Shown: positions 9,808 through 30,705 of the stretch, piece after piece
How positions within the stretch are numbered: position 1 is the stretch's first letter
How the letters are laid out: every line of letters begins with the position of its first letter
IMG/VR virus record: IMGVR_UViG_3300023116_000177
Span: 1 to 33,271 of that record
Direction: 5' to 3' (one strand)
Origin: a virus
Length of the DNA stretch: 33,271 bases
Notes under the pieces: model-generated
What the model was told of the DNA's origin: nothing
Seen by the model: the letters and a program-made list of their open reading frames with translations, nothing else
The model's database searches: none
Position numbers and translations under genes: made by a program

Positions 9808-10578
9808 ATGGACGAAAAGTTAAACGAGATTTATAGTACAATAGTAACTGAAAGCGAAAAGGTTGCTGAAGCACCAGTTGGTGAATTAGAGGGCTCAGAA
9901 AAAGCACAAGGCCCCAAATCGGTTGAAACCGCAGACAATAAAGTCGATGCCCCCGAAGAAGGCCCTTCTCAGGGTGAAGTTAAAAAGGGTGGCGCATGTG
10001 CAAACAAAGAAGTAGTTGAAGATTCATTTGATTTTAAATCGTCTGCTTCATTTGAAGAGCTTTATAAGAATATTATCGGTGAGAATGAAGACATCGTTTC
10101 TGCTCCTGACGTAGAAGGTGATTCTTTTGATGACGATCTCGGTGATTTTGACGCTGCTCTCGAAGATGACGTTGATGAAGAAACTGATATCGCCACAGAA
10201 TTACGTACAATGGCAGACCGCTTATCCGAATTAGCAGATAAGTATGGCGAGCCGGAAGATGAAATGGAAGGTGAAGACGACGTTTCTGACGAAATCGATG
10301 ACTTAGGTGGCGAAGAGGACGATGAAGATGAAGTTTTCGAATCCATCAAGTCCGAGCCAGAACCAAAACCTTTTGATCCTGCCGTAAACAGAGCCAAGAC
10401 AGCAAAAGGTAAGCTTTCCAGCGTTGGGAAGAAGAAAGCCAAAGGCGACTTAAAGGGTAAGCATACAGGCGAACCTGAAACATTAGGTGACAAGAAAGGT
10501 CACACAAATACTAAAGGAAACACTGCCAAGGCATCTGGACCTGCCGCAAGCAAAAAAGCAACTGACGCTTTTTGCTAA
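9808..10578 (+). CDS. Charge-polarised acidic protein, candidate prohead core/internal virion protein
   Basis: 256 residues, no recognised enzyme domain. The N-terminus LNEIYSTIVTES is a clear example of the window's recurring tag, with IVTE matching a T4-type prohead-protease cleavage context. A second copy, SFEELYKNIIGEN, lies near residues 80-92. Residues about 95-185 are extremely acidic (runs of D and E, with LRTMADRLSELADKYG as the one helix), while the last about 65 residues are Lys/Gly-rich. This acid-then-base layout resembles prohead core proteins and internal DNA-binding proteins, but no family is assigned. It has a strong AAAGGAG site, tandem late motifs upstream and a terminator downstream, so it is likely an abundant late single-gene transcript. 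Gene start is well fixed. Confidence 0.85.
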   Translation: MDEKLNEIYSTIVTESEKVAEAPVGELEGSEKAQGPKSVETADNKVDAPEEGPSQGEVKKGGACANKEVVEDSFDFKSSASFEELYKNIIGENEDIVSAPDVEGDSFDDDLGDFDAALEDDVDEETDIATELRTMADRLSELADKYGEPEDEMEGEDDVSDEIDDLGGEEDDEDEVFESIKSEPEPKPFDPAVNRAKTAKGKLSSVGKKKAKGDLKGKHTGEPETLGDKKGHTNTKGNTAKASGPAASKKATDAFC

Positions 10579-10608
10579 AAGATATCCCCATATATCTCCT
10601 TTACAAAG

Positions 10609-10637
10609 AATTCTCCCCCAAAAAGGGAGAATTTTTT
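10609..10637 (+). terminator. Rho-independent terminator
   Basis: AATTCTCCC (10609-10617) pairs perfectly with GGGAGAATT (10625-10633) around a 7-base loop, followed by TTTT. It ends the acidic-protein transcript. Confidence 0.92.
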
Positions 10638-10641
10638 GTTT

Positions 10642-10649
10642 TATAAATA
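10642..10649 (+). promoter_or_regulatory. Late promoter TATAAATA immediately before a gene lacking a Shine-Dalgarno
   Basis: An exact TATAAATA core lies only ten bases before the ATG at 10660. T4 late transcripts start a few bases after the core, so the mRNA would be leaderless or nearly so. The element continues as AGTATTTAAA. Confidence 0.65.
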
Positions 10650-10659
10650 AGTATTTAAA

Positions 10660-11955
10660 ATGAACTTCAACGAATTTTACACTGAATCCATATTAGATAC
10701 CCCTAGAACAGACCTCGATCCCACTGTATTTGAATTAGTGGACGGTCTTCCCCCTAAACTACATGGGGCTATCAAAGCACAAATTCTTGAAGATGTGCTT
10801 CGCTTGAAAAGAAAAATGGTGGTTAATAAGACTTTCATTATCGGAAGTATTCTAACTAAGACTTATAATAAGAATTCAGATATTGATGTCACCTTAGAAG
10901 TCAATAGTGAAGATGTCCACCCTGAAACGGGATTGGCCGGGGTTGAAGAATTGACATACCTTTTAAGGGATTTAAATGGTAATCTGGCTGTTGGGACTAC
11001 TCACCCTATCAATTACTACATCACAACCGAATTCAGAGAAGAAAACGCCGACGCTATTTATGATATAGATACCGATGCATGGGTTAAAGAGCCTTATGAT
11101 ACACAATTAGAAATCGCTAACTATATGCAAAAGTTTGAAGAGTTAGTTTCATCAATAGACCTCTCTACTGGTAAGTTGAAGAGAGATGTTGTTGATTACA
11201 TGGAACTTAAGGATTTAGACGAATCCAGCATTATAAACTTCCATACTATTTTAAATAAGAAACTTTACGAGATTAATAAGAATATTGAAGAGTTGGTGAA
11301 GTTTAAGAAGGATATAAAATCGAAACGTCAAGATGCCTTCTCCCAACCTCTCACACCAGATCAAATTTTAAAGTACGCTTCAAAGAATAGGCTCCCTGCA
11401 AATGTGATTTATAAACTCTTTCAGAAGTATTATTACTTCGATCTCATTAACCGTTTAGATGATATCATCTCTAATAGAGATAAATCAAATGAATATGTTG
11501 ATGACATTGAGGACGTCCTTGGATATAAAGAGAGCGTTTCTTTTGAAGAGTTTGATGCTCTTTACGAAGACTTTAAAACGTTCAAAGGCGGTAAAGTAGA
11601 TTGGGCACAGCCGAAATCCGTAAGAAAATATAGAGATAGACGCTTTAACTTGTCAAAAGGTTTAGCCGGGAAGAGTTTAAGACAGACCCCTAACATCTAT
11701 TCTAGAAATTCAAATCCTTCCAGTTTTAGAACCCTTGGATTAGCTAACAAAGTCGTTGATGTAGCGAAGAGATCTCCTTCAGGTATTTGGAGGTTGACTC
11801 CATTACAAGTGAAAGAGATCGCTTTAAAGTATCACCATATCCCGCCGAATAAGCACGATCCTATCAAGCACTTAGGTAACACTGGTATTGTAGTCTGGCG
11901 AAAAACGCCTAAACATTTCTATTTAGTGAAGCATCGCCATTTACGTAAGAGTTAA
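10660..11955 (+). CDS. Nucleotidyltransferase-fold protein with N-terminal tag
   Basis: 431 residues. After a tag-like N-terminus (MNFNEFYTESIL), residues about 60-80 carry the pol-beta superfamily signature: IIGSILTKTYNKNSDIDVTL gives hGS-x(n)-SDhDh with paired Asp ligands for metal. A helical middle (about 190-290) and a second tag-like segment near 298 (VSFEEFDALYEDF) follow. The C-terminal about 110 residues are basic and His-rich. What is transferred, and to what acceptor, cannot be told. The gene starts ten bases after a TATAAATA core with no Shine-Dalgarno. Its end overlaps the convergent small gene at 11952 by four bases. It is the first of two nucleotidyltransferase-fold proteins here carrying the tag; the other is the CCA-type enzyme. 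Confidence 0.82.
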   Translation: MNFNEFYTESILDTPRTDLDPTVFELVDGLPPKLHGAIKAQILEDVLRLKRKMVVNKTFIIGSILTKTYNKNSDIDVTLEVNSEDVHPETGLAGVEELTYLLRDLNGNLAVGTTHPINYYITTEFREENADAIYDIDTDAWVKEPYDTQLEIANYMQKFEELVSSIDLSTGKLKRDVVDYMELKDLDESSIINFHTILNKKLYEINKNIEELVKFKKDIKSKRQDAFSQPLTPDQILKYASKNRLPANVIYKLFQKYYYFDLINRLDDIISNRDKSNEYVDDIEDVLGYKESVSFEEFDALYEDFKTFKGGKVDWAQPKSVRKYRDRRFNLSKGLAGKSLRQTPNIYSRNSNPSSFRTLGLANKVVDVAKRSPSGIWRLTPLQVKEIALKYHHIPPNKHDPIKHLGNTGIVVWRKTPKHFYLVKHRHLRKS

Positions 11956-12453: not shown

Positions 12454-12457
12454 GTTA

Positions 12458-13870: not shown

Positions 13871-13882
13871 AATATGTTTCCT

Positions 13883-14302
13883 TTATAATGATATGTTCTC
13901 AATATTATAGAACATCTCTTGTATAAAGTCAATCATCTTAGTGGTATTTTCTATCTCTTTTTGGAGGGTCTTTTTATCTTGCCCCCCAATATTGGGGAAT
14001 TTCAAGGTTTGTTTCAGTTTAGTGCGTAAAGAAACAAGATCCGTGTAGATTTTCACAAGGTCATCGTTAATGAAATCTAATGGGAAGGGTTTGATTGGTG
14101 GCGCTTTAGAAGCTTCATCTTCCATACGAGCCATATTCATAAAGTTGTTTTCAAAAGTTCCCGAATTAGTTGTGGCACCATGAGGCCATCTAATCATATT
14201 ACTTTCCCATGAAGAAGCGTTCTTCGGGTTAGAAAATGAATTAGTAGCAAAAAATTCGTTTAGAACTTTCTCGAAAGGGTTATTGTTCTTCTTTTGACTC
14301 AT
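13883..14302 (-). CDS. Unknown protein
   Basis: 139 residues beginning MSQKKNNNPFEKVLNEFF. The first half is Asn/Ser/Met-rich and probably flexible. The second half (about 75-139) looks like a two-helix coiled coil (LVKIYTDLVSLRTKLKQ and KTLQKEIENTTKMIDFIQEMF). It overlaps the upstream Cys-rich gene by 23 bases. The segment NPFEKVLNEFF loosely recalls the recurring tag but lacks its Tyr and cleavage Glu, so I do not count it. No family recognised. Confidence 0.65.
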   Translation of the reverse strand: MSQKKNNNPFEKVLNEFFATNSFSNPKNASSWESNMIRWPHGATTNSGTFENNFMNMARMEDEASKAPPIKPFPLDFINDDLVKIYTDLVSLRTKLKQTLKFPNIGGQDKKTLQKEIENTTKMIDFIQEMFYNIENISL

Positions 14303-15478: not shown

Positions 15479-15775
15479 ATGGAATATTTCAGAGATCAAC
15501 AAGTCCTTGTGGAATTAACTGAGTCTATATTATCTAATATTAATATAGCGAATGCGTTTGCGGACCAAATTAAAAATATTCGAAATTTCCCACAAGAACT
15601 AAAAGATGTTTTTAATAAATTTGGATATGTGGAAAGTGGAGATATTAACGATTTATTCGCACGTAGCGACGACATTGACCATTTAACCAAACAGTATTTA
15701 AAAACGAAGGATCAAAACGCCTTGAAACAAATTGAAGCTATACTAAATCATTGGAAAGTGAAAACAAATGAATAA
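15479..15775 (+). CDS. Small tagged protein upstream of the metallopeptidase/VWA gene
   Basis: 98 residues. The N-terminus VLVELTESILSNI contains the tag core with an LTE cleavage-like site and matches the start of the next protein (LIALTEAILNGF), so both may be processed alike. The rest is helical and charged (DQIKNIRNFPQELKDVFNKFG and DIDHLTKQYLKTKDQNALKQIEAIL). It overlaps the next gene by eight bases, so they are translationally coupled and probably partners. AGGAG lies 13 bases before the ATG. No family recognised. Confidence 0.7.
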   Translation: MEYFRDQQVLVELTESILSNINIANAFADQIKNIRNFPQELKDVFNKFGYVESGDINDLFARSDDIDHLTKQYLKTKDQNALKQIEAILNHWKVKTNE

Positions 15776-17669: not shown

Positions 17670-17962
17670 TGGAAATCGAACAAATACACGCAAAAATAGA
17701 AGAGTTAGAACGTGAAAGAACCCGCATCTTACGTGGTATGGGTGGTCGTTACAGTTATACTCATAGGTTAAAAGTAAAACCCGATGAGAATAAAAGTAAG
17801 ATTAAAAGGAATGCGAAGCGAATTAAAGATGTGAAAAAGCGTCTTTTAAACTTAACAGATGAAATCTATAAACTTAGAAGAAGTTTGGAATCGCATTCTG
17901 TGACAATGGAATCCAGCGCAAAATTTAACTCGGTATACACTGAAGTTCTAAAGGAATTTTAA
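17669..17962 (+). CDS. Small coiled-coil protein with C-terminal tag
   Basis: 97 residues. The body is an uninterrupted charged coiled coil (IEELERERTRILRGM, then IKRNAKRIKDVKKRLLNL). The last 15 residues, SSAKFNSVYTEVLKEF, are the C-terminal form of the recurring tag. Its ATG overlaps the stop of the metallopeptidase/VWA gene by one base, so it is translated with it. Its end overlaps the convergent DUF1353-like gene by 38 bases, meaning the tag-coding bases also encode the end of that protein on the other strand. Confidence 0.75.
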   Translation: MEIEQIHAKIEELERERTRILRGMGGRYSYTHRLKVKPDENKSKIKRNAKRIKDVKKRLLNLTDEIYKLRRSLESHSVTMESSAKFNSVYTEVLKEF

Positions 17963-18458
17963 CGATTTTTATTTCACTTAGATGGATACTCCCCTTAAAC
18001 ATATTAGGGCTATCCAAATGATTAGGTAAACGTCTTTTCACTTTAAAGGTTTTCCTATACCATGAAATGACTTCTGAGAAGAACGTACCTATATGTCTAA
18101 CTGCTCTGTAGTAGATATTATATAATTCGAATCCGACTTCTTTCATTTGACGACGAAAGATCCGATCTACTTGTCTTCTGGTGTATGGAAAGTCCTCTGT
18201 GTCGTATATCCCCATACATCCAACATCGTGAATAAGGGTAGATAGCCATAAAATAGGGTATCCCGGTTTATCTTCTGATTCAGGGCCATCATATGCTAAT
18301 GTCGCACCGTCCCATATCGTATTCTTTTGAATATGCCAAATGCCGTCCTCTATATAAAACCAAGGGTATTTTTCAGAGGACCAATTTTTATCCGATGGTC
18401 CGATATCGACGGCTATATCTTCATCGAGAATGAGATATTTTTTATTCTTCTGGCTCAT
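17925..18458 (-). CDS. DUF1353-like phage protein
   Basis: 177 residues. Hallmarks of DUF1353 are present: WDGATLAYDGP (substrate-pocket-like G-A), LWLSTLIHDVGC, TRRQVDRIFRRQMKEVG and YRAVRHIGTFF. The conserved His-Asp and Asp residues could bind metal, but no activity is established for the family. It starts 17 bases inside the end of the upstream tagged gene, so expression is coupled. It has no tag itself. The final about 30 residues overlap the convergent coiled-coil gene and may be a non-conserved extension. Confidence 0.8.
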   Translation of the reverse strand: MSQKNKKYLILDEDIAVDIGPSDKNWSSEKYPWFYIEDGIWHIQKNTIWDGATLAYDGPESEDKPGYPILWLSTLIHDVGCMGIYDTEDFPYTRRQVDRIFRRQMKEVGFELYNIYYRAVRHIGTFFSEVISWYRKTFKVKRRLPNHLDSPNMFKGSIHLSEIKIVKIPLELQCIPS

Positions 18459-18894
18459 CAGGCGTCTCTCCTGATACTCTTAAAGCGTCTTTCGCTTGAT
18501 TCATACCTCTTAGAAACGCAGAAATACCTGCAATGGCAGGAAAAGCCCCACCTGCACCCTTGGATGTGTAATCCTCTTGGGCTAGTTTATCAAGATTTAC
18601 ACCAATTTTAGAGGCGTCACTTCTTAATTCTGCGTAAACTTTATCAAGCTTTTGGGAGAAAATCTTCATGAGTTGACTTGCTCTTTGCTCTTCGACATCC
18701 ATTTCACCTTGCTGTTGTAATTCTCCGGCTGCTCTACCAAGACGAGTATCACCAGCTACTTTACTGATTCCACCAAGTGCTTTATTACCGAGGCTTGAAA
18801 GTCTTGTCCCTGATTTGGCTTTAATTCGGTCTAATATACCCTCGTCAACTTGGGTGAACGCTTCTTCTAATAAAATTTGGTCATTGTCTCTCAT
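18442..18894 (-). CDS. Tagged unknown protein (MRDNDQ type)
   Basis: 150 residues starting MRDNDQILLEEAFTQVDEG. The same MRDNDQ-[IL]-L-x-E opening occurs in the protein at 20130, showing a shared leader on otherwise different bodies; ILLE matches an IxE cleavage context. Behind it are Gly/Ala-rich helices (LSSLGNKALGGISKVAGDTRLGRAA split by short turns) and a helix with Gln/Met (ASQLMKIFSQKLDKVYAEL). A Gly-Ala-rich segment near 113-125 might be membrane-active, but is not a clear transmembrane span. An AAAAGG site and an AGTAAGTAATTAAAA element precede it. Function unknown. Confidence 0.72.
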   Translation of the reverse strand: MRDNDQILLEEAFTQVDEGILDRIKAKSGTRLSSLGNKALGGISKVAGDTRLGRAAGELQQQGEMDVEEQRASQLMKIFSQKLDKVYAELRSDASKIGVNLDKLAQEDYTSKGAGGAFPAIAGISAFLRGMNQAKDALRVSGETPDEPEE

Positions 18895-18922: not shown

Positions 18923-20146
18923 TTAAATGTCATCAAACTCAGATTGTAATGATTTTTTATCGTTTTGAATGCCACTCGCCATAGTTTGACTAGTTTTCTG
19001 AATAGTATTAGGTGCCTTTTTAGCCAATAAAACCTCAGAAAAGTCATCTTTGAGATTACTATCCTGAATATATTTCAACATTCTTTCCTTCACCGAACGT
19101 GTCGTGTAAATGCCTTTTAAAATTTCCCTTATAACAATAGGGCGAATAGTTGGGTCAACTTGACTCACAACTGTATTCAAAGCCTTCATTGCAGCTAAAT
19201 TCAATACAATGGATAAATGGAATTCAGGGTTTATCTTATAATCTATAAATGCTTGTTCCGCTTCAGGGTTACCTGCAATACCTTTAAAATTAATAGGAAT
19301 GTCTAACCCAATACTACGAAATAAATCCGTCAATACCATCTTAGAAGGTTGTGTTAAATGGCCAACAAGATCTCTATGCATAGTCTCAACATTCCAACTC
19401 TTTAATGGAATTGTAATGTCATTAGCTAATTGAAAAGAAAGGGTTTCTATCTCATCCGCAGACTTACCACGAATATCATTCGCAAAATGTCCGAATCTCT
19501 TTTCTAACTTTGCGCTGAGATTCTTTGCAGTTTCAAATATTTGGGCAGTCTTCTTAATGATACTCTTCTTCTTATAACGGGTCTTCTTAATCTCACTAAC
19601 TTTTAAACCCTTTACAAAGTTTATATCACCAGCATCAAGACCTTTCTTCTTAGCGTTTTGAAGTAATAAATCTACGTTTTTCTTATACTTTTCGATGTAT
19701 GCGTCTAACATCGAATCTATTCGAGATTCAATGCTACCTTCTACATCTTCGGTGAAAATACTATTGTAATTTTCTATAAAGCTGGTGAAGGCTGTTGTTA
19801 CTTTTTTATTCTCTTTGACTAAAGATTTAGCTTTTTGTTTGGCCTTTTCGACACCATATCTACGCTCTAATGTTTTATAGGTCTCCCAAGAAACTTTAGG
19901 TTCTGATATTTCGTCATAATTTCGCTTACGATTTTTAGCCTGCTCATCTGTAGATTCGACATATTTTTTCAGTTTAGTATAATACTTTGGGTCTTCTTTT
20001 AAATGGTCTTTGGCTATATCGGTGTAAACTTTTTTCTTAGGTCTATTGGGGTTTTGTTTCAGTTTTTTTATCGTTTGGGAATGTTCCCTTTCGATTTCTC
20101 GCCCTTTTTTTAATTCCTTTTTAAATTCACTATCTTGGGAATGCAT
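18923..20146 (-). CDS. Large internal protein with DUF5661-like head and an internal tag
   Basis: 407 residues. The first about 70 (KGREIEREHSQTI, IAKDHLKEDPKYYTKLKKY) match the pattern of the phage-associated DUF5661 domain. A copy of the recurring tag, FIENYNSIFTEDVEG, lies at about 124-138, followed by roughly 270 residues of predominantly helical sequence rich in Lys. If IFTE is cut by a prohead protease, the head domain would be released from the large helical body. The C-terminus (KTSQTMASGIQNDKKSLQ) is probably flexible. It overlaps the upstream gene by 17 bases. Function unknown. Confidence 0.75.
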   Translation of the reverse strand: MHSQDSEFKKELKKGREIEREHSQTIKKLKQNPNRPKKKVYTDIAKDHLKEDPKYYTKLKKYVESTDEQAKNRKRNYDEISEPKVSWETYKTLERRYGVEKAKQKAKSLVKENKKVTTAFTSFIENYNSIFTEDVEGSIESRIDSMLDAYIEKYKKNVDLLLQNAKKKGLDAGDINFVKGLKVSEIKKTRYKKKSIIKKTAQIFETAKNLSAKLEKRFGHFANDIRGKSADEIETLSFQLANDITIPLKSWNVETMHRDLVGHLTQPSKMVLTDLFRSIGLDIPINFKGIAGNPEAEQAFIDYKINPEFHLSIVLNLAAMKALNTVVSQVDPTIRPIVIREILKGIYTTRSVKERMLKYIQDSNLKDDFSEVLLAKKAPNTIQKTSQTMASGIQNDKKSLQSEFDDI

Positions 20147-20563: not shown

Positions 20564-20770
20564 TTATTCTCCACCACCGCCGTCACCGCCGCCAGCGTCA
20601 CCTGTGGCACCGTTAAAACCAATACCGCTATGCGGATAAAACCCATAAGTGGAATTCTTATAATGCTTAGAAGGCTTCCATTTGTTTTTCGAAGACGATT
20701 TCTTCTTCTTTTTCTTCTTCTTTTTCTTTTCTAACAGAACAATCTCAAACTGACGCTCAAATGCTTTCAT
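20564..20770 (-). CDS. Tagged poly-lysine protein
   Basis: 68 residues from the ATG at 20770 (an ATG nine bases upstream is too near the AAAGGG site). The first 14 residues, MKAFERQFEIVLLE, form a tag resembling T4 internal-protein leaders and end in an LLE cleavage context. Immediately after it come ten or more consecutive Lys, then a Ser/Lys/Trp/Tyr-rich part and a Gly/Asp-rich tail (DAGGGDGGGGE). Cleavage after LLE would free a polycation suited to binding packaged DNA; that is inference. It is preceded by an exact TATAAATA on this strand. No family recognised; the lysine run in the DNA is a simple (AAG/AAA) repeat and may vary in length between relatives. Confidence 0.75.
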   Translation of the reverse strand: MKAFERQFEIVLLEKKKKKKKKKKSSSKNKWKPSKHYKNSTYGFYPHSGIGFNGATGDAGGGDGGGGE

Positions 20771-20791
20771 ATGTGTCATAACCCTTTGTTT

Positions 20792-21459: not shown

Positions 21460-22941
21460 TTAAACATTTTTTAAACTATTATAAATTTCAATAGTTTTTT
21501 GTTTAATCACATCTTCTGACGCCTCAAAGAGGTCTTCATCGATGATATTTTCTTCCATTTGACTCAGAATTTTACTCATGTAGGGTTTGTTTTCCCTTTC
21601 TTTTAGTTCAGGAATCCATTCCATAAGTTTTCTCCCATCAATAAGGGTTTTTATACGTGTTTTTAACTCACTAGCTTGATAACCTTTATTGGCTTCAGCA
21701 GCTAATCTTTCAGCGTATTCAACCTTTTTCTGGAAGTCTTGAGGTGTAGAATGTTCAAATTTACGACACATCTCATCAGCATATCCAACAGCCTTTAAAT
21801 ACTCCCAATACGGATGATTGACAATTGAAACAACCTTACTCTTCTTCATGTCATAAATCTTATGAACTCTCATATGATTCGCAGCACAATATTCCAAAAC
21901 TTCCCTATCATCGTTCGATAATCTTAAACGTTTTGCAATTTGCTTGACAATAGGAACACCAGCTTCCTCATGTCCATGATACGAATGCTTACCTTGATTA
22001 TAGTCATATGTAGTGGCTTTACCCACATCATGAAACGCAATGGCTAAATTAGTCAAAGCATCAGTGCTATTACTAACTCTTAATGCTTCTAAAATGTGCC
22101 CTAACACTTTCCCACCACCTTCAGGGTGGTGTTTAATGTTGTGTTGCATGTCTTTTAGTTCATATAACTCAGGGAGCAGTTTCTGAAGTAAGCCTATTTC
22201 ATCTAATTTCTCTATATAATTGGCTAAAACGGGTCCAGAAATCCCTGCAACCTTGTATAACTCTTCTGCAATTCTCTCCTTAGCAAGATTATCTACAGAA
22301 TCCTTTAACTCTTTTGCCGATTTTAACGTCTCATCTTCTATTTCAAATCCCATTTTAATGGAGAATCTTATCATTCTTAAAATTCTAATAGCGTCTTCCG
22401 TGAATCTTAAGCGAGCATTGCCGACAGTTCGAACAATACCTTGCTTTAAATCGTCTAAACCACCATGATGATCGATGATTTCCCCGTCACTATTGACACC
22501 CATAGCATTAAATGTGAAGTCTCTTCGTTCAGAATCGCTCTTGAACGACTTAACTAATGTCACTTCATCCGGTCTACGATTATCACTGTAACCTTCCTCA
22601 GTGCGGTAGTGTGCCACTTCGAATTCTTCATCCATAAATAACACCAAAAGAATGCCGAAGTCTTTCGATTTTCCGATATCATGTGTTCTGAAGTTCTTCT
22701 CAATCTTATCTAAATCGACATTTGTAGCGATATCAACGTCTTTTATGGGCTTTTTTAAGACCAGATCTCTAACTGATCCACCCACAATCAAGGCTTCTGC
22801 GCCTTCACCGCCAAGTGCCTCGATCTCTTTACAAAGAGCAACGCCCTTAGCGAAAAGGGAGTTTGAGGCAACAATACCAGAGAAATCCTCTAGCTTGTCT
22901 TCAACTATAATGTCGTTGTACACGTTTTGAAAATAATTCAT
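21460..22941 (-). CDS. cca: tRNA nucleotidyltransferase / poly(A) polymerase family protein with HD domain and N-terminal tag
   Basis: 493 residues. After the tag (MNYFQNVYNDIIVED) the nucleotidyltransferase head shows IVGGSVRDLVL, the metal-binding DVDIAT, RRDFTFNAMG, DLKQGIVRTVGN and RFTEDAIRILRMIRF, the full order of class II CCA-adding/poly(A) polymerases. An HD domain follows (HH at about 277, FHDVGKATTYDYN near 308, HEEAG near 325), as in bacterial CCA enzymes with 2-prime,3-prime-phosphatase-like activity. It would add or repair the CCA end of tRNAs or add tails to RNA. A packaged or injected form is suggested by the tag, with IIVE a possible cleavage context; that is inference. The start codon lacks a strong ribosome site. 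Confidence 0.93.
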   Translation of the reverse strand: MNYFQNVYNDIIVEDKLEDFSGIVASNSLFAKGVALCKEIEALGGEGAEALIVGGSVRDLVLKKPIKDVDIATNVDLDKIEKNFRTHDIGKSKDFGILLVLFMDEEFEVAHYRTEEGYSDNRRPDEVTLVKSFKSDSERRDFTFNAMGVNSDGEIIDHHGGLDDLKQGIVRTVGNARLRFTEDAIRILRMIRFSIKMGFEIEDETLKSAKELKDSVDNLAKERIAEELYKVAGISGPVLANYIEKLDEIGLLQKLLPELYELKDMQHNIKHHPEGGGKVLGHILEALRVSNSTDALTNLAIAFHDVGKATTYDYNQGKHSYHGHEEAGVPIVKQIAKRLRLSNDDREVLEYCAANHMRVHKIYDMKKSKVVSIVNHPYWEYLKAVGYADEMCRKFEHSTPQDFQKKVEYAERLAAEANKGYQASELKTRIKTLIDGRKLMEWIPELKERENKPYMSKILSQMEENIIDEDLFEASEDVIKQKTIEIYNSLKNV

Positions 22942-23014: not shown

Positions 23015-24073
23015 ATGATTTATGAAGTAGAACTACAAGATGTATATAGCAATGTTGTTTTAGAAGAAAATAAAAAACAGAGCCTTTCATGGCTACATTC
23101 GAAAGGGATTCCTGAAGAGGTAATAAAGAAGATTATACAGTTGGATGTCACACCATCGAAAGGTCATAGTATTCAATTGGGGAAATATTACCTCGAAACC
23201 AATAGTATTGGCCCTATTTCAGATTACTACAAAAAGTTTGCGAAACTCTACGAAAAGAATAAATCTCTTCAAATAACAAAATATAAAACTTTTCACGATT
23301 TTGAAAACTTCATTGACGCTAATGAAAGAAGTCATGGTAAAATCAACACAAAAGGTGAAAAGACTTCTTCGGAAGTTCGTAGTGAAGCCATTTACGAAGA
23401 TGAAAATGTGGAGATATATTATGCATCTAATGTAAAATCTGCATGTGATTACGGACATAAATTAGGACAAAGTTACTCGTTTTGTATTTCGAGAACAGGT
23501 TCTGGTAACCTTTATAACGCTTATAGATTAAGACAGCAGTCGTCAATGTATTTCATCAAATCAAAACACAGATCATCCAATATTGTAGACGGTAGATATG
23601 AAGACCCTTCACATATGATTGTTTTGGATGTGATGCCTGACCCATACAACAGTTCCGAAATAAAGTTACAATGGACATGGGCAGATAACGGATCTCAAGG
23701 TCACGGTACAAAAGAAACCACATGGGAAGAAGTCTTTGAAGAAGTTCCTGAGTTACAGGTACCTTACGAAAAGGGTGTATTCGAATCCCATCCACTATCC
23801 CCTGAAGAGAGATCGAAACTCGAAACCTTCAACGCCATCAACGAGGGTGATTTTGAATCTTTCCATGAACTGGATTACGACGAAAAAGATGAATACCTAA
23901 AATCAGGGTTCACCATCGACGACTCCATTTTCAATTCATTGGATAAAGAACAGCGCAATGAGTTCCTTGGGACCGGGGGCGAAATCAGTGAAGGTATGTA
24001 TGAAAGCTTATCCCCCGTTGAATTGAAGCGTTGGTCTGAAGTTCGTTTACGTGTTATTGAAGCTATGTTATAG
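23015..24073 (+). CDS. Tagged protein with a phage YG-x-C-type domain and C-terminal short repeats
   Basis: 352 residues. A tag-like N-terminus (LQDVYSNVVLEEN) precedes a domain around 125-235 with VEIYYASNVKSACDYGHKLG, SYSFCISRTGSGNLYNAYR, MYFIKSK and HMIVLDVMPD. I recognise this as a recurrent phage domain with a central Cys/Trp-Cys-like site, but not with a known activity. The last about 90 residues hold three degenerate 22-25-residue repeats: FHELDYDEKDEYLKSGFTI, FNSLDKEQRNEFLGTGGEI, YESLSPVELKRW. An AAGGAAGAG site lies upstream. It starts the plus-strand cluster of helical-repeat paralogs and is eight bases from the next gene. Confidence 0.75.
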   Translation: MIYEVELQDVYSNVVLEENKKQSLSWLHSKGIPEEVIKKIIQLDVTPSKGHSIQLGKYYLETNSIGPISDYYKKFAKLYEKNKSLQITKYKTFHDFENFIDANERSHGKINTKGEKTSSEVRSEAIYEDENVEIYYASNVKSACDYGHKLGQSYSFCISRTGSGNLYNAYRLRQQSSMYFIKSKHRSSNIVDGRYEDPSHMIVLDVMPDPYNSSEIKLQWTWADNGSQGHGTKETTWEEVFEEVPELQVPYEKGVFESHPLSPEERSKLETFNAINEGDFESFHELDYDEKDEYLKSGFTIDDSIFNSLDKEQRNEFLGTGGEISEGMYESLSPVELKRWSEVRLRVIEAML

Positions 24074-24081: not shown

Positions 24082-24954
24082 GTGAACAAACCTGACGCAA
24101 GACTTCTTTATAAGACCTTTAAAGAAAACCCTAATCATAGCGTTTTCGACCATTTTGATGGTAATAGATATATGTGGTATGATTTATTCAGAATCAACTA
24201 TGATGACACAGGAATTCCTGATAAAGAGTTAATGGGTAAATTACAGAATGACCTTTTCTTTTCCTTTCGTGTTTCTGTTAGATTAGTTGAGAATGGGGAT
24301 TCACATCTCGTATCGCCAGAAAATCTTGAAGGAGTTACAGGTTCAATTGAACAAACCTCCCAATTAATTTACGCCTATGTGTCTGCAAATGAAAAAATAC
24401 CCGATATACTTCTTTCAACAGTATCAGACAGATACAGTAAAGTGTTAGATATAGCTACATATATAGCAGGTGAAGACTTTGAATATAAATACGGAATACC
24501 TGAAATATTGAAAAAGAAAATTTTAGGGAATCCCGAATTAAATTATGAGTTCGTCACAGACACAATCCGGTACCATCATAAATTAGCCCCTATGGAATAT
24601 CTTAAACCTATTGCAGAAAGACCTTCCGGTTCATATGGTGTTTTGAGAACAATTATTTTAACAGGTAACTCGGACCTCGAACTACCCGAAATATTCATAA
24701 ATGGTGTCTCAAAAGAGCCAAGATTGGTTTACGCCATCATCGAAAACATTTTAAGAAATAGAGAAGGGACACCTATACCTGACGTTCTCTATAGAGGGAT
24801 CGCTAAATCAAAAGGATATTCACATCATTTATATAGACTTTTAACGAAGTACAAAATGGAAGTTCCGAAAATCATTCTAGACGCCGCACGATTAAATGCG
24901 AACTATAACGAAAACGTTAATTATTTTGAAGGGTTGTATAAAGATTTATCATGA
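24082..24954 (+). CDS. Helical-repeat paralog 1 with C-terminal tag
   Basis: 290 residues from a GTG at 24082 preceded by AGGTGG. The N-terminal signature NKPDARLLYKTFKENPNHSVFDHF is shared by five proteins here. Several copies of a roughly 29-residue helical hairpin follow, each starting with a proline: IPDILLSTVS, IPEILKKKIL, LPEIFINGVSKEPRL, IPDVLYRGIAKSKGY, VPKIILDAARL. The C-terminus NVNYFEGLYKDLS is the tag. The stop overlaps the next start as ATGA. Function unknown; alpha-hairpin repeats usually bind protein or RNA. Confidence 0.8.
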   Translation: MNKPDARLLYKTFKENPNHSVFDHFDGNRYMWYDLFRINYDDTGIPDKELMGKLQNDLFFSFRVSVRLVENGDSHLVSPENLEGVTGSIEQTSQLIYAYVSANEKIPDILLSTVSDRYSKVLDIATYIAGEDFEYKYGIPEILKKKILGNPELNYEFVTDTIRYHHKLAPMEYLKPIAERPSGSYGVLRTIILTGNSDLELPEIFINGVSKEPRLVYAIIENILRNREGTPIPDVLYRGIAKSKGYSHHLYRLLTKYKMEVPKIILDAARLNANYNENVNYFEGLYKDLS

Positions 24955-25898
24955 GAAAAACTGACTATAAAATGTTACTCCAAACACATAAGGTAAACCC
25001 CTCACATAGGATTTTCAAAAAGCTAAAAGATGGGGATTATGCCTACCACTTCTTCATCCTAGCCTTTTCATATTTTAAAGAGAGAAAAAAACCCGAAGAC
25101 ATACCAGAGGACATATTACAAGCCATCTCTATTTACTCAAGTTATAATAAGAATTTAATCGAAAGAATGTTACAAAACGGTGTGGGAATAGAAAGCATCC
25201 CTCAAATACTTTTAGATAATCTCGATAATTTTGTTGACTTGATAGACATAATGATCACTCTAATAAAGGAAGATAAAGAAATACCGGATTCCCTTATTGA
25301 CGTTATCGTCAAAAAGCATAAAGATTTTTCTAGAGCAGAAAAAAATAGAATGATTTTGCTTTTTCAATATTTTGTTGTACATAGCACAGAAGTCCCTAAA
25401 AAATTGAAGAACTTAATTCTTTCAGATCCAGATCTAATTTATCAAGTAGTCAAAACGACATTATCTGATGCCGCATATTATGACGTTTCTATAAAATACG
25501 ATTTCACTAAAAACCCATTCTTTCACGAATTATTAGATAAGTTCGCAGAAGGGGGTGTAAACGATAAGGTCCATCTGATGAAGGTTCACGACACTCTGAT
25601 TAAGATGATGAATATAAAGGTGTTTAAAAATCTCCCTCCCAATCTTTTAAATCGATTAGCCACATCACCACAACATTCGCTTTCGCTATTAATGTACATA
25701 TTCAGAGATCATGGGTTAAGAGACGCACCTGAAGTGTTGATTAATTCAGTCGCAAAAGATCCTAGTTATTCAAAATCTTTGTTGCAACTGATGAAGAGAT
25801 TGAGTTTAAATATTCCCGATAATATTCGAAAAAGTGCAGAACAAGCACCAGACAACCGTAATGTTTTCGAATCCTTTTTTCACGAATTATCTCAATGA
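24951..25898 (+). CDS. Helical-repeat paralog 2 with C-terminal tag
   Basis: 315 residues. It shares the family N-terminus (TDYKMLLQTHKVNPSHRIFKK) and repeats beginning IPEDILQAIS, IPQILLDNL, IPDSLIDVIV, VPKKLKNLILSDPDL, LPPNLLNRLATSPQHS, APEVLINSVAKDPSY, IPDNIRKSAEQ. It ends RNVFESFFHELSQ, a weaker tag in which Tyr is replaced by Phe. The start is coupled to paralog 1 by an ATGA overlap, and its own stop overlaps the DUF1289-like gene in the same way. One insertion of about 25 residues (around 180-205) breaks the regular repeat spacing. Confidence 0.8.
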   Translation: MRKTDYKMLLQTHKVNPSHRIFKKLKDGDYAYHFFILAFSYFKERKKPEDIPEDILQAISIYSSYNKNLIERMLQNGVGIESIPQILLDNLDNFVDLIDIMITLIKEDKEIPDSLIDVIVKKHKDFSRAEKNRMILLFQYFVVHSTEVPKKLKNLILSDPDLIYQVVKTTLSDAAYYDVSIKYDFTKNPFFHELLDKFAEGGVNDKVHLMKVHDTLIKMMNIKVFKNLPPNLLNRLATSPQHSLSLLMYIFRDHGLRDAPEVLINSVAKDPSYSKSLLQLMKRLSLNIPDNIRKSAEQAPDNRNVFESFFHELSQ

Positions 25899-26059
25899 AA
25901 GTGTCTTCTCCTTGTAACGGCGAATGCCTTTTTCAAGATAAGGTTTGTGTTAGTTGTGGTCGCACAATAGAACACATTCGTTCATGGATCAAATACACTG
26001 AAGAAGAACGTTTAAAGATAATGTCAACACTTAAACCGTCTAATCCCAATCCCACCTAG
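25895..26059 (+). CDS. DUF1289-like small Cys protein
   Basis: 54 residues. SPCNGECLFQDKVCVSCGRT, then IEHIRSWIKYTEEERLKIM, match DUF1289: SPC-x-x-x-C, C-x-x-C-x-R-T, E-I-x-x-W and an ER motif. The four Cys probably bind a metal or Fe-S centre; the family has no settled function. It overlaps paralog 2 by four bases (ATGA) and runs 20 bases into the end of the convergent gene at 26040. It has no tag. Confidence 0.88.
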   Translation: MKVSSPCNGECLFQDKVCVSCGRTIEHIRSWIKYTEEERLKIMSTLKPSNPNPT

Positions 26060-26624
26060 ACTCAGGATCGTGTTCCTCTAATTCAGCAGTCACACCATAA
26101 AGATCAGGATTAAGATATTCTGGTGCTGTTTCTCTAAGCTTTTTAATGATGAAGGCTCTAGCTTGTTTATCCGAATAGGCTTTCACTTTCATCTGCTTTA
26201 CCGTAGACATATCGGATTTTCTATATAATTTGACAATTCTTGGGAGGCGAATGTTCATCCCTTCAGTCTTAACCGTTCTTTTTTCGAAATATGAAACCAA
26301 ATCCCTTAACCATTGATCAGGTGCCTTGTCGCGGACTGCCCCTATTTTCTTTATAAAAAGCATTACATACGAATCAGAAATCATCTTTTGAAGAAGTTCT
26401 TGCCTTTGTTCAGGGGTATCAACCTTTATCTTATTACCATATTTGTCTTGAGTTACATGATTCTTGAAGAAAATATTGTAAAAGAGGCGTATCAATTCGT
26501 TTCTCGTTTTGACATTTTCCAACTCTAAATCGAAAACGTTATTGTTGTTTGGAATCCCGTGAAAATCTGCAAGATAGGGCGTTTCCATTAGAACTTTTTC
26601 ATATAAATCCTTAAATATGTTCAT
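26040..26624 (-). CDS. Tagged unknown protein
   Basis: 194 residues. The N-terminus MNIFKDLYEKVLMETP is one of the best tag matches, and VLME fits the cleavage context. The rest contains helices (LIRLFYNIFFKNH, QRQELLQKMISDSYVMLFIKKI, WLRDLVSYFEKR) and a basic C-terminal part (LPRIVKLYRKSDMSTVKQM). The DNA before the ATG is AATAAGTATTTAC with no Shine-Dalgarno, as for the genes at 10660 and 6078. It is a lone minus-strand gene inside the plus-strand repeat cluster. No family recognised. Confidence 0.75.
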   Translation of the reverse strand: MNIFKDLYEKVLMETPYLADFHGIPNNNNVFDLELENVKTRNELIRLFYNIFFKNHVTQDKYGNKIKVDTPEQRQELLQKMISDSYVMLFIKKIGAVRDKAPDQWLRDLVSYFEKRTVKTEGMNIRLPRIVKLYRKSDMSTVKQMKVKAYSDKQARAFIIKKLRETAPEYLNPDLYGVTAELEEHDPESRWDWD

Positions 26625-26632: not shown

Positions 26633-26649
26633 TTATTTTTTGATAAATA
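26633..26649. promoter_or_regulatory. Divergent late-like motifs
   Basis: The minus strand reads AATAAGTATTTA towards 26624 (from about 26639), and the plus strand reads ATAAATA (26643-26649) followed by TTTTTAACC towards 26678. The two elements lie back to back in a 53-base gap. Confidence 0.5.
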
Positions 26650-26677
26650 TTTTTAACCGAAAAGGCTGAAATATATA

Positions 26678-29092
26678 ATGTTAAAAGATGTAGATATTAA
26701 ACTTTTAGTGGATCTTTACGAAAAAGAACCAAACCATACGATATTCGATAAGCTAATGCATTACCAATCGGGTATTGATTTTATGATTGAATGGTTAAAA
26801 GATCATAACGACGGTGGCCCTTTTTTGGACAAGCTTGAACAATACCCACATTTTTGTTTAGATATAATATTTGGTTTATTGCCTTTAGGAAGGCCAATCC
26901 CCGAAAAGTTAATAAAAATTGTATCCGAAAACGCAAATGAGGCGAAAGCGTTTATTGGATTTCTTCTAGCTAATGGTATGAATGTACCTAAAACGTTGTT
27001 TAAAGCCGTTACGAATCACCCGAGAACCGCAATCCATGTGGGAAAAGAATACATCAAAAACGGCGAACCCATCCCAGATGAAATATTAAGGGGTATGATT
27101 AAACCATCATCAAACTGGTTTTATCAAACGGATGAACAAATAAAAGATATTTTTGATATTGCGATTTCCTTTGCGAATTTCGAAAGAATACCCGCAGAAT
27201 TATTAGTGTTCATTTCTAGACACCCGAAATACGCCTATACATTGAAAAATTACTATTTCAAAAAGGGGATCGACGCCCCACCAATAATTAAACAGGCTGC
27301 TGCGAAATGGAACAACCAATTAGGTGTGGTTGAAGAAGGAGTGATGACTCTTGAAAGAAAAATTTATCAACCTATACTTGACTTCTATTTGAAAACCGTC
27401 GAAGCTTATCAGGCAAGTCCTAATAAGAAGGTGACAGAAGTTTCGTTCCCTAGTAAGGTTTTTAATCTAGATTTATCTGAGACGAAATGGGAAATGTTAC
27501 AGCCACATGTACGCCCTATAAAGGTGTCTTTTTCTTATGATGATTCATCTCACGGACCTAATGGCCATATAACCTTAAGTCTAAAAGAACCTGTTCGTGA
27601 GATGATCGACGTCATTGAACACGAAGTTCTCCATGAGATACAATACTTATTAGGTAAACATTCAGGTGGGAAACATCGTTATCTTGGACTCTCAAAGAAA
27701 AAGCATAAAGTGATGGGTTACGACATTCATGGGCATAAAACTCAGTTTGAAGCGTATTACATTTACGCCAATCGTAAACTCTTCTACGGGAAAGAAACGA
27801 AGCAAAAACCGTTAGTGATCCACGCAAACAATAAAGACCACGCTTACGAGATAATAAAGAAAACATTTGCAGATAGTGTAGTAGTGACACTGACTAACAA
27901 TAAAAAGAAAAAGTTGGGAATGACTGATATAGTTCAGACCGACGCTCATAATTTCAATTTAACAAAGCCAGCGAGGGCTTTAAAAGTTGGGGATACTTTA
28001 CAAGGTGTGAAAATCCGAAAGGTGGAAAAGGTCCAACCCAAATATAATCTTTATTATATCGACACCCTTTCCTCGTCACCAAAACCTTACGATTACAAAA
28101 ATAAAGTCTTAATTGATTTCAAAAACCCTGAAACGTTAAGAGGGTTGAAACGAAATCTGAAGATTAAGCCGATATATGCCCATAGAAGAACCAAACACGG
28201 GTTAAGACCAGTGGAATACCAAACAGATTTACTTTCAGCGTTGAGACATCTTCAAGCTGCCTATATAATGCATTTTGATATAAAAGATGAAAACGCTCAA
28301 TTGTTATGGGATAAAGAAAAGAAAAAAGAATTCTTTAAAGATGTTCTCGCTAAAAGGGTGAAAACGAAATATGGCCTCATCGTTCCAAATGAACATGAGA
28401 ACATTAAAGGGCCTTACTTGAAAGAGTTATATAAAAACTTTGTCGAAAAAACCGGAAACCTTGATGTCAGTAACGATATTAAAAAGTATCGTGAAATTGT
28501 GATGCGTGATAGGATGAAAAAAATCAAGCAAGCACAAGAAGAAAGCGAAAACGAAGGTTTTGAAATTAATGGTAAAACATATACAGAGGATGATTTTAAT
28601 GGGAGAACTCAGAAAGAACCCCATTATGATTTCCCTTATGAGATTATGGGTGTGTTAGATGGAACTAATATCGAGTTCGGTGACGAATTCCTTGTATATG
28701 ATCTCGGATTTAAAAGAAAGTATTCTGAAAGAGATGGAGAAGAAAATTACCACATTCCAATTTCGTATAGAACCTTTAGAATTCTTGGTAACAAGATACA
28801 AAAGATTATTCCCACCAAAACCTCAACGGGTCGTCATGAATTAGAAAGTGGTGAAGATATTGACCCTAAACTATTATATGTTTTCGCAAGTTATAACCTT
28901 TTCAAATTCATGTTATCCCATGTGGATAATAGAGATCTTAGTTTTAGACATAAAGAAGACGTTAATGCAGTCCTAAAACATTTCTCCGGTATAGATGCCG
29001 TTGAAGAATTAAGTGGTACCCCTCTCGATTTGAATGGGGTTAAAAATGAAAGTGTGAACTATTTCGAAAGGTTATATAATGAGACTGAATAA
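26678..29092 (+). CDS. Helical-repeat paralog 3 fused to an HEXXH peptidase-like domain, C-terminal tag
   Basis: 804 residues. The family N-terminus (DVDIKLLVDLYEKEPNHTIFDKL) and repeats (IPEKLIKIVS, VPKTLFKAVTNHPRT, IPDEILRGMI, IPAELLVFISRHPKYAY, PPIIKQAAAKW) occupy residues 1-215. A peptidase-like domain follows with HEVLH at 315-319 (VIEHEVLHEIQYLLG). A third zinc ligand could be E358 (TQFEAYYIY) or E513 (RPVEYQTDLLSAL). Between them, about 375-470, is a strand-rich insert with VGDTLQGVKIRKVE. The C-terminal about 250 residues are mixed and end ESVNYFERLYNETE, the tag. No signal peptide. A virion-delivered protease is an attractive but untested idea. Confidence 0.82.
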   Translation: MLKDVDIKLLVDLYEKEPNHTIFDKLMHYQSGIDFMIEWLKDHNDGGPFLDKLEQYPHFCLDIIFGLLPLGRPIPEKLIKIVSENANEAKAFIGFLLANGMNVPKTLFKAVTNHPRTAIHVGKEYIKNGEPIPDEILRGMIKPSSNWFYQTDEQIKDIFDIAISFANFERIPAELLVFISRHPKYAYTLKNYYFKKGIDAPPIIKQAAAKWNNQLGVVEEGVMTLERKIYQPILDFYLKTVEAYQASPNKKVTEVSFPSKVFNLDLSETKWEMLQPHVRPIKVSFSYDDSSHGPNGHITLSLKEPVREMIDVIEHEVLHEIQYLLGKHSGGKHRYLGLSKKKHKVMGYDIHGHKTQFEAYYIYANRKLFYGKETKQKPLVIHANNKDHAYEIIKKTFADSVVVTLTNNKKKKLGMTDIVQTDAHNFNLTKPARALKVGDTLQGVKIRKVEKVQPKYNLYYIDTLSSSPKPYDYKNKVLIDFKNPETLRGLKRNLKIKPIYAHRRTKHGLRPVEYQTDLLSALRHLQAAYIMHFDIKDENAQLLWDKEKKKEFFKDVLAKRVKTKYGLIVPNEHENIKGPYLKELYKNFVEKTGNLDVSNDIKKYREIVMRDRMKKIKQAQEESENEGFEINGKTYTEDDFNGRTQKEPHYDFPYEIMGVLDGTNIEFGDEFLVYDLGFKRKYSERDGEENYHIPISYRTFRILGNKIQKIIPTKTSTGRHELESGEDIDPKLLYVFASYNLFKFMLSHVDNRDLSFRHKEDVNAVLKHFSGIDAVEELSGTPLDLNGVKNESVNYFERLYNETE

Positions 29093-29804
29093 GGTAGACT
29101 TTCGATTAATGTATGATCTTTACCAAAGAGAACCTAATCATAATCTCTTTAAGAATTTCATTCAAAGGCAAGACGATTACCTTGCGATGTCTTTCGCAAA
29201 ATGGATACTTAAGAATGATCTCGACATGCTAGAATTCCTTATAGATATAACGGCTATAGATGCGTATAATTCAAGGAATTTATCGATGATTCACGCTTAT
29301 AAAGGTAGAGAAATACCCGAAAAACTTATTAAAGGTGTGATAAGGGCAGGGCCTGAAGTCGCCCAAGGTTTCCTTGGAGAGCTTATGCCACATGTTGGTT
29401 CAATAGAAAAAGTACATCCTAAAGTATTTGAAACAATAGCGGAATCCCCAAAAGAATCGTATTACACATATAAAGATTTAAAAAGGATAAACCTTGAAGC
29501 CCCTGAAATTCTAATCAAAAGTATTTGCACAGATATGAGATTTTTGCAACAATACGCAATGGATATTTTTAGACGCAATGAAACATTCCCAGAAATTGTT
29601 TTGCGAAGTATATCTGTAGACCCCAGATCTTCATACAATTTAGTTCGCATTCTTAAAACAATGAAGCAACCAGTTCCAGATTTTCTAATTAAATCCGCTA
29701 AAAGATATAGCAACCCCCTAATGCAGTCTGATGAAAAATATCGAAACGATATAACTGAAGAGTCCACAAACTATTTCCAAAGGATATACGATGTACTTCA
29801 ATAA
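29079..29804 (+). CDS. Helical-repeat paralog 4 with C-terminal tag
   Basis: 241 residues, overlapping the previous gene by 14 bases. Family N-terminus: NKVDFRLMYDLYQREPNHNLF. Repeats: IPEKLIKGVIRAGPE, HPKVFETIAESPKESY, APEILIKSICTDMRF, FPEIVLRSISVDPRSSY, VPDFLIKSAKRY. The C-terminal tag is ESTNYFQRIYDVLQ. The ribosome site GAAAGG sits inside the tag codons of the upstream gene (F-E-R-L-Y). Function unknown. Confidence 0.8.
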   Translation: MRLNKVDFRLMYDLYQREPNHNLFKNFIQRQDDYLAMSFAKWILKNDLDMLEFLIDITAIDAYNSRNLSMIHAYKGREIPEKLIKGVIRAGPEVAQGFLGELMPHVGSIEKVHPKVFETIAESPKESYYTYKDLKRINLEAPEILIKSICTDMRFLQQYAMDIFRRNETFPEIVLRSISVDPRSSYNLVRILKTMKQPVPDFLIKSAKRYSNPLMQSDEKYRNDITEESTNYFQRIYDVLQ

Positions 29805-30705
29805 AACAGATGTAGATCTAATGATTAATGAATTGGAGAAAAACCCTAATTCACCGATATCTCAAAAACTACTCCATCCTTATAAGGCGAGGGAGTTTGC
29901 TATCTCTTGCGTTAAAAATAATATGGAAATCCCTGAAAAAATTGTTGACGTTTTATGTAAAAGTCCCGAATTTTCATATTATGTGATTATCGATTTTCTC
30001 GATTATGAATATGATGTCACTTTAGGATATAGGAATTTAAAACCTAACGAAGAAAAGAAGAGTGAAATCCCTGAAAAGTTACTTCTTTCCGTAGCCCAAC
30101 ATGACGCTTACGCACAACATTTGTCGATAATGCTTATCGAAAGAAGCAAATTAATACCACTTGATATTGCCGATGTGTTAATCCAATCCCCTAATCATTG
30201 TTATAGTTACACAACTGAAGTCCTTCTCCCTAATCGTATAAAACCCTCAGAAACTTTCATACGAAGAATATCTGAAGATCCATTCACCTCTCTTAACTTT
30301 GCCAGAACACTCATTAAAGCTAAACTAGATGTTCCAGACATAATATTCGACGCTATTATAAAGGATGAAGACACAAGAACTCAATTCGCTGTCAGTACAG
30401 TAGCTAGTCAGTGGGAGCTTCCCGATAAGTTCATCCACGCAATCGCTACCGATTCATATGATTCATATAGATTAGTACACGCAATGCTTTATCAAGGAAG
30501 AAAAGATATTTCAGAAGTGCCCAAAGAACTTATTAATGCTGTGGCCAAAGACGAAGCAGATTCATTTAAGTTGATGGGTTATTTACAGCGCGAATTTAAA
30601 ATGGAAGTCCCACCTGCAATCTCGAATAGTGCTAAAAAGTATTTTATGTATCGAGAGGAAAGATTTAACGAAAATTACTTCGAAAAACTCTATAAACAAC
30701 TGTGA
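29791..30705 (+). CDS. Helical-repeat paralog 5 with C-terminal tag
   Basis: 304 residues and the cleanest repeat member, overlapping paralog 4 by 14 bases. Family N-terminus: NKTDVDLMINELEKNPNSPI. Seven hairpins start IPEKIVDVLCKSPEFSY, IPEKLLLSVAQHDAY, IPLDIADVLIQSPNHCY, PSETFIRRISEDPFTS, VPDIIFDAIIKDEDT, LPDKFIHAIATDSYDSY, VPKELINAVAKDEAD, mostly 29 residues apart. A short last one is VPPAISNSAKKY. The end NENYFEKLYKQL is the tag. An AAAGGA site lies in the tag codons of paralog 4. It closes the plus-strand cluster. Function unknown. Confidence 0.82.
   Translation: MYFNKTDVDLMINELEKNPNSPISQKLLHPYKAREFAISCVKNNMEIPEKIVDVLCKSPEFSYYVIIDFLDYEYDVTLGYRNLKPNEEKKSEIPEKLLLSVAQHDAYAQHLSIMLIERSKLIPLDIADVLIQSPNHCYSYTTEVLLPNRIKPSETFIRRISEDPFTSLNFARTLIKAKLDVPDIIFDAIIKDEDTRTQFAVSTVASQWELPDKFIHAIATDSYDSYRLVHAMLYQGRKDISEVPKELINAVAKDEADSFKLMGYLQREFKMEVPPAISNSAKKYFMYREERFNENYFEKLYKQL

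Follow-up and report, generated by a model that had tools for sequence, protein, structure and literature searches.

A short peptide tag recurs on unrelated proteins encoded in IMG/VR virus record IMGVR_UViG_3300023116_000177, analyzed here as the complete 33,271-bp record (the window). The record covers part of the genome of a T4-like environmental phage. The tag is real and, judged from sequence, is best read as a T4-type capsid-targeting sequence (CTS); very probably the tags are CTSs of the kind found on T4 internal proteins. Three lines of evidence are decisive: the enrichment at window N-termini of a residue rule derived from T4, the exchange of tags in three orthologous protein families, and an 81-nucleotide (nt) cassette in four genes of another phage contig (L087). 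The internal proteins of T4, whose tag brings them into the head ahead of the DNA, serve as the model for how phages deliver proteins along with their genome. The tag is also used for packaging foreign proteins in heads, and the gp21 protease of T4 cleaves after hydrophobic-x-Glu. Mutagenesis of the T4 internal protein IPIII (MKTYQEFIAE/A, with the slash placed after the Glu at position -1) assigns residues 4 and 7 to targeting and residues 8 and 10 to processing, and Asp at residue 10 stops processing while targeting is kept (PMC9026906).

The tag peptides sit in the window where the initial annotation had placed them. Tests independent of that annotation were used because its peptides had been picked by eye. 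The first applies a T4 rule consisting of [FY] at -7, hydrophobic residues at -4 and -3 and Glu at -1 ([FY]xx[hyd][hyd]xE), with positions taken from the published IPIII mutagenesis, not fitted to the window, and with residue classes of our own choice. Seven of the 45 window proteins tested meet this rule at the N-terminus versus 0.50 in shuffles, and none of 400 shuffles reaches seven. Relatives, which were gathered via three alignments (sheath, nucleotidyltransferase and CCA-adding enzyme), are enriched at N-termini too (three versus 0.26 in G013; four versus 0.23 in G019). Hydrophobic-x-Glu at residues 7-18 occurs in 25/45 window proteins versus 12.0 in shuffles (0/200). The second test uses a blind profile trained solely on head-core and scaffold proteins of the relatives, with zero window sequences in it. 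This profile selects five of the 45 proteins at a whole-protein p<=0.002, where ~0.1 are expected, and six at p<=0.01. The five (p=0.002 each), named here by the window coordinate at which the gene interval starts, are 9808, 26040, 20564 and, at their C-termini, 17669 and 29791; four of these matches are independent, as 9808 is a probable member of the training family. Leave-one-group-out scores are concordant with the tag and partly circular.

An explanation by chance would hold that a pattern-seeking reader over-read amphipathic N-terminal helices. The earlier list did hold unsupported members, and a de novo expectation-maximization motif search over the termini did not separate real from shuffled sequences (log-likelihood ratio 154.1 for the real set, 142.0-156.0 in ten shuffled sets). 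Chance is nevertheless extremely improbable given the blind-profile and rule tests, and the independent exchange of tags in three orthologous families, seen across genomes, contradicts it.

The proposed tie to T4 rests on the position rule and on orthologues whose tags are of the MKTFETFIKE/S type, not on profile similarity. Within the nucleotidyltransferase family that includes 10660, position -1 is Glu in 30 of 31 distinct N-termini and Asp in the other, position -3 is hydrophobic in 31/31, and position -7 is Phe in 19/31. Both T4-length tags (MKTFETFIKE/SMIDIP, MRFKDFINE/SIIDIP) and longer, window-like tags (MMNTFNKLFNDVLNE/SIIDL, MNTFNKTFNDILHE/SVLDM) occupy the same orthologous site, and the long form of the window can therefore be described as the T4 form plus about one helical turn. 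The tag that the initial annotation assigned to 10660 is present, in the register MNFNEFYTE/S and not as TESIL, and the Pfam domain NTP_transf_2 begins after it at residue 42; a PDB profile search with 10660 found nothing. Like the CTSs of T4 IPI, IPII, IPIII and Alt (MKTYQEFIAE/A in IPII and IPIII), the window tag is a short N-terminal peptide on unrelated proteins with an aromatic residue at -7, hydrophobic residues at -4 and -3, Glu at -1 and often a small residue next, and the window phage is itself T4-like with an S77 protease in its relatives. The window form differs in its additional turn with an extra Phe or Leu at -11, in occurring also internally and at C-termini, and in a cargo that includes recognisable enzymes such as the CCA-adding enzyme. 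For the N-terminal copies, the earlier proposal of a T4-like CTS with a gp21-type cleavage site is thus well supported by the matching IPIII positions, the T4-type tags on orthologues and the S77 genes of relatives. Separately, T4 gp61.1 (NC_000866, gene 61.1; L146:8966-9130) starts with MKTFKEFIKEDM, which is very near the T4 CTS and meets the T4 rule.

The tags precede the starts of folded domains (10660, CCA-adding enzyme) and are exchangeable. Orthologues of the CCA-adding enzyme, the nucleotidyltransferase and 23015 keep the site but have other tags ahead of the Glu, often plainly T4-like ones (MKFENYINE/A, MKTFETFIKE/S, MSFSQFILE/G). The 23015 orthologue of L247, a 332-kb record, starts MSFSQFILE/GQNE, and that of L087 reads ...KSNGILLE/GQNE; these two proteins match at 33 of 60 residues after the site and at 2 of 9 before it. 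The structural model of 23015 is poor (mean predicted local distance difference test score, pLDDT, of 52) and was used only for the disordered N-terminus, where residues 1-18 are under pLDDT 50.

Four consecutive genes of L087 start with MILSEQKLIKNLYLQIKSN[GC]ILLE/GQN (L087:2333-6758), among them orthologues of the window CCA-adding enzyme (43% identity) and of 23015 (30%). The phage contig L087 was assigned by binning to an Izimaplasma metagenome-assembled genome (MAG), which does not establish the host. The DNA of the block is identical at 81/81 nt in three copies and at 80/81 in the fourth, starting at the ATG and ending after codon 27, with identity at chance level upstream and downstream. 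On the simplest reading, the cassette arose on the L087 orthologue of 23015 and was then copied to its neighbours. A block that begins at the ATG and is shared as DNA by four genes could instead suggest that the common N-termini are translation-start or regulatory modules copied between genes, with the peptide incidental. This is very improbable, since the window tags agree at protein positions while their DNA has little in common (mean 53% nt identity), the DNA upstream is not common to the L087 copies, and a start module could not account for the copies found inside proteins or at C-termini.

The window CCA-adding enzyme has PolyA_pol, RNA-binding and HD domains and aligns to its best-matching solved counterparts only from residue 37-40, so the tag lies within an added N-terminal stretch. 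Among 26 distinct N-termini of CCA orthologues in viral contigs, 16 fit the T4 rule once it also admits Leu at -7 and His at -4. Their tags include MKFENYINE/AREQLKDW, MKFLNYLIE/A, MRFKRYLNE/A and MISFKQFVQE/A, with MNTFNKLYNSLTE/A (248-kb record G017), MRLTTFLINE/A and MDFRRFYLFE/A as near variants, and several records with tagged CCA genes also encode S77 (G017, G028, G030, G036). The cultured-phage CCA enzymes checked (KVP40, Ahp1, VmeM-32, phiM19, 4MG, phiTY18, Atu_ph07) differ in having no tag and starting directly on the enzyme. CCA-adding enzymes repair tRNA 3' ends. Phage nucleotidyltransferases have been proposed to serve RNA repair against tRNA-cleaving defence (PMC7824862), and the phage tRNA-repair enzymes treated there (CCA-adding and RlaP-type Pol-beta nucleotidyltransferases) belong to the same domain classes as the window enzymes, clearly so for the CCA-adding enzyme and only at the NTP_transf_2 level for 10660. 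The relevant passages of that source discuss them as countering attacks on the translation system and mention no packaging signal.

By layout and position only, we infer that 9808 is a prohead-core-type protein. This acidic protein has a basic tail and carries two tags, and proteins of the same layout lie beside or near TerL in G013, G001, G005 and G011 and in the head block in G003. Equivalents of its internal tag are FEKLFKATINE (G003), FDKLYTSILKE (G013) and FNRLFEQTLTE (G001). Homology is proposed from layout, motif and position because blastp of 9808 against the same-layout proteins gives no significant match; 9808 also has no Pfam, PHROG or NCBIfam match and no detectable gp67/gp68 homology. 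Scaffold-like (gp22) proteins near S77 in the relatives have N-terminal peptides ending YLNE/D (G001), LITE/D (G003), ILTE/Q (G011) and ILTE/E (G017). Peptidase_S77 of the gp21 type was found in 6/15 (one in a bacterial MAG), 1/12 and 8/17 related records, several with tagged genes (G001, G003, G009, G011, G017, G028, G030, G036 and others). These features resemble the T4 core of gp22, gp67 and gp68 and its processing by gp21, in the acidic character, basic tail and two cleavage-like sites of 9808 and in the hydrophobic-x-E/ peptide with which the gp22-like proteins of relatives begin; they differ in that 9808 has no detectable similarity to the T4 core proteins. In the giant phages SPN3US and phiKZ the prohead protease also cuts after a Glu motif, and N-terminal propeptides (for the protease also C-terminal) are proposed to target proteins into the prohead, but these are mostly ~64-130 residues long with AXE-type sites in SPN3US (PMC7411985, PMC5694885), whereas the window tags have 9-17 residues and hydrophobic-x-E.

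Several findings weigh against a T4-type CTS. The 33-kb window contains no protease, scaffold or capsid gene; the gp21-like protease that the initial annotation proposed to look for is absent because the fragment does not include that region. Ranked by the window profile, T4 internal proteins and gp22 come out no higher than other T4 proteins, and T4 homing-endonuclease N-termini (MNYxKIYxxLI) outscore the T4 tags under it, so the long form alone is not diagnostic. The long L087 tag fits only the L-x-E site and is unscored by the T4 rule because its aromatic -7 position is unmatched. Finally, the C-terminal copies belong mostly to one paralogue family, and the only clear case in a relative is the protein G013_3477. 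As an alternative, the tags might be docking helices for some other assembly (a membrane, a replication compartment or a shared partner enzyme) with the Glu a matter of helix chemistry, given that short amphipathic helices have many jobs, that the C-terminal copies have no consistent Glu, and that the homing-endonuclease N-termini score alike without being CTSs. Docking of this kind is improbable, however, because conservation across the 31 nucleotidyltransferase N-termini is highest at Glu -1 and the hydrophobic -3, as it would be for a cleavage site, because members of the 23015 family are homologous from the residue behind the Glu onward, as expected of such a site, and because the same kind of site occurs in scaffold and core proteins.

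The initial annotation also took the C-terminal copies as targeting tags, which is likely and much less certain than for the N-terminal ones. Five solenoid paralogues (24082, 24951, 26678, 29079 and 29791) and 17669 end in F-x-x-[LIVF]-[YF]. In a C-terminal test, 5/45 window proteins match versus 0.37 in shuffles (0/200), four of the five being paralogues. The Glu at the T4 position is kept in 26678, 24951 and 17669 and replaced by Asp in 24082, and the remaining two have neither. The AlphaFold2 model of 29791 is a mostly confident alpha solenoid in which the tag is a separate end helix (residues 296-303; last blocks at pLDDT 56-68), and a fold search with the solenoid model gave no match at E<=0.001. 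One alternative accepts the N-terminal copies as CTSs and takes the C-terminal ones as the conserved end of the paralogue family plus a chance match in 17669. It has an appreciable, though less than even, chance of being correct: four of the five C-terminal matches and 26678 are paralogues with ~20-27% body identity, and the relatives show no general C-terminal enrichment. On the other side, the motif of 26678 stands at the extreme C-terminus although ~570 residues unlike its paralogues divide it from the repeats, 26678, 24951 and 17669 meet the T4 rule including the Glu, 29791 and 17669 reach p=0.002 with the blind profile, and G013_3477 is tagged at both ends (N-terminal MKSFKSYILTE/A, C-terminal NNIFYKLYKEII). 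A role of the C-terminal copies as a targeting element with no need of removal is somewhat favoured, and not more than that because most cases belong to one family. Their frequent lack of the Glu fits an uncut targeting element, in line with the separation of targeting and processing in T4.

In the proposed mechanism, in which binding, packaging, cleavage, injection and cargo purpose are all inferred, a short amphipathic helix (aromatic at -7 and often another at -11, hydrophobic at -4/-3) would bind a gp22-like scaffold core during head assembly, and the tagged protein would be enclosed as the shell forms. A gp21-type S77 protease would then cut after [ILVFY]-x-E, the propeptide would be lost, and the mature enzyme would remain in the head and be injected with the DNA. 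The internal copies on 9808 would be scaffold-processing sites, and C-terminal copies, which keep the targeting residues and often lose the Glu, would target without needing removal. Candidate cargo comprises the CCA-adding enzyme, the Pol-beta-type nucleotidyltransferase, the HEVLH protein 26678 and the alpha-solenoid proteins. This pre-loaded tool kit would act in the first minutes of infection, plausibly in tRNA repair against tRNA-cleaving defences; early delivery would be sensible because the CCA-adding enzyme repairs tRNA 3' ends and nucleotidyltransferases have been proposed for RNA repair.

The new element suggested here is a known T4-type tag on unexpected and widespread cargo, a tRNA-repair enzyme included, and phages of this kind may pack and inject a ready-made enzyme kit with their DNA. 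The broadest version, which we consider evenly balanced, is that a transferable label (N-terminal, internal or C-terminal, and copied as an exact DNA cassette) loads a changeable virion tool kit in a large group of uncultured T4-like phages, with tRNA repair and other counter-defence delivered alongside the DNA. If so, the tag could be read from sequence to list injected proteins even in phages nobody has grown, tRNA-repair enzymes would be injected cargo in many lineages and would defend against tRNA cleavage before phage gene expression, and new tag forms, possibly C-terminal ones, would become available for protein packaging.

The accepted carriers are listed in Table 1. Where the initial annotation spoke of about eighteen unrelated proteins, the count is 15 copies on 14 proteins of ~10 families, with five C-terminal copies on paralogues. 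The N-terminal tags of 9808, 20564, 21460 (CCA-adding enzyme), 23015 and 26040 were correctly called and meet the T4 rule, and one on 13883 had been overlooked. The two internal copies, on 9808 and on 18923 (which has a DUF5661 domain at residues 12-61, ahead of its tag), both carry the hydrophobic -3 and Glu -1; these processing residues are found in all N-terminal and internal window copies. As the initial annotation had it, the tail, hsp20, DUF1289 and YqeY genes lack a tag at either terminus when judged by the T4 rule; a single interior match in YqeY is taken as chance.

Table 1. Tag copies accepted in the window, with coordinates of the tag (a slash follows the Glu at -1)
Tag and protein	Coordinates	Strand	Support
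N-terminal LNEIYSTIVTE/S, acidic head-core-like protein 9808-10578	9820..9852	+	T4 rule; two-tag layout as in core proteins of relatives
Internal FEELYKNIIGE/N, protein 9808, residues 82-92	10051..10083	+	Blind profile p=0.002; equivalents in G003, G013, G001
N-terminal MNFNEFYTE/S, Pol-beta-type nucleotidyltransferase 10660-11955	10666..10686	+	31 orthologue N-termini
N-terminal FEKVLNE/F, protein 13883-14302	14255..14275	-	T4 rule; G013 orthologue starts MDKFRQIFKE/D
C-terminal FNSVYTEVLKE, protein 17669-17962	17924..17956	+	Blind profile p=0.002; C-terminal test
Internal FIENYNSIFTE/D, residues 123-133 of 18923-20146	19748..19780	-	Leave-one-out p=0.017; T4 rule at residue 133
N-terminal FERQFEIVLLE/K, small Lys-rich/Gly-rich protein 20564-20779	20729..20761	-	Blind profile p=0.002; T4 rule
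N-terminal FQNVYNDIIVE/D, CCA-adding enzyme 21460-22941	22900..22932	-	T4 rule; enzyme alignment starts after tag; tagged orthologues
N-terminal LQDVYSNVVLE/E, protein 23015-24073	23033..23065	+	T4 rule; L087 and L247 orthologues
C-terminal FEGLYKDLS, solenoid paralogue 24082-24954	24925..24951	+	C-terminal p=0.004 (blind profile); C-terminal test
C-terminal FESFFHELSQ, solenoid paralogue 24951-25898	25866..25895	+	T4 rule; C-terminal test
N-terminal FKDLYEKVLME/T, protein 26040-26624	26583..26615	-	Blind profile p=0.002; T4 rule
C-terminal FERLYNETE, 804-aa protein 26678-29092 (N-terminal repeats and HEVLH body)	29063..29089	+	T4 rule; extreme C-terminal position
C-terminal FQRIYDVLQ, solenoid paralogue 29079-29804	29775..29801	+	C-terminal test; paralogue comparison
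C-terminal FEKLYKQL, solenoid paralogue 29791-30705	30679..30702	+	Blind profile p=0.002; AlphaFold2 end helix

Four copies proposed earlier are unsupported. Those on 15479 (LVELTESIL) and 15768 (LIALTEAIL) fail the T4 rule. Orthologues of 15768 begin NLMNLYEAIRGN or ELISKLYEDIRNN and have an untagged-looking LYEAIR helix at this place, and the N-terminal helix of the family looks like the enzyme's own. Both members of the MRDNDQ pair instead have another N-terminal motif, [DN]xxLIxE.[YF], which turns up repeatedly in relatives. This second motif lies on different proteins (window 18442-18894 and 20130-20561; L007:7042 and 7485; G001:172368), with MRDNDQLLMESIY, MKDNDTLILEKRY and MRYKDVDLIWEAY as examples; it is seen in L007, G001, G004 and G006 and is possibly another head-targeting or cleavage peptide.

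The minus strand of the window carries split TerL, sheath and tube genes, followed by a block of mostly unknown genes, and PADLOC reports weak domain-level matches only. A 17-kb contig (L003) comes from the same phage (100% over the TerL query). When viral contigs were scanned with single window proteins (CCA-adding enzyme, TerL and the metallopeptidase domain), almost only this phage was recovered, and cultured phages gave no tblastn match to 26678, 10660 or 23015. TerL is interrupted (6090-9749, minus strand), and within 8559-9749 it contains an insert that resembles an intein, close to Walker A. The end of the insert in 8559-9749 resembles a split-intein N-half, a GIY-YIG gene follows at 7613-8518, and 6090-7604 starts with a stretch resembling an intein C-half ahead of CIIIDEMAF. 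The Pfam Intein_splicing match to the interrupted TerL is weak (E 6e-4, below the cut-off), and TerL is uninterrupted in L002. The minus strand at ~1600-1720 has a sequence resembling a tRNA, possibly with the anticodon GTA (Tyr), that is unreported by ARAGORN. At 5767-5824 the window has a frameshift relative to the near-identical L003, where 5372-6108 is one 245-aa open reading frame; this is probably a sequencing or assembly error. Two window proteins contain HEXXH, namely 26678-29092 (HEVLH) and 15768-17669 (HEILH). The latter matches DUF2201_N, a putative metallopeptidase domain, and the name HNH endonuclease that PHROG 1314 gives its family looks wrong.

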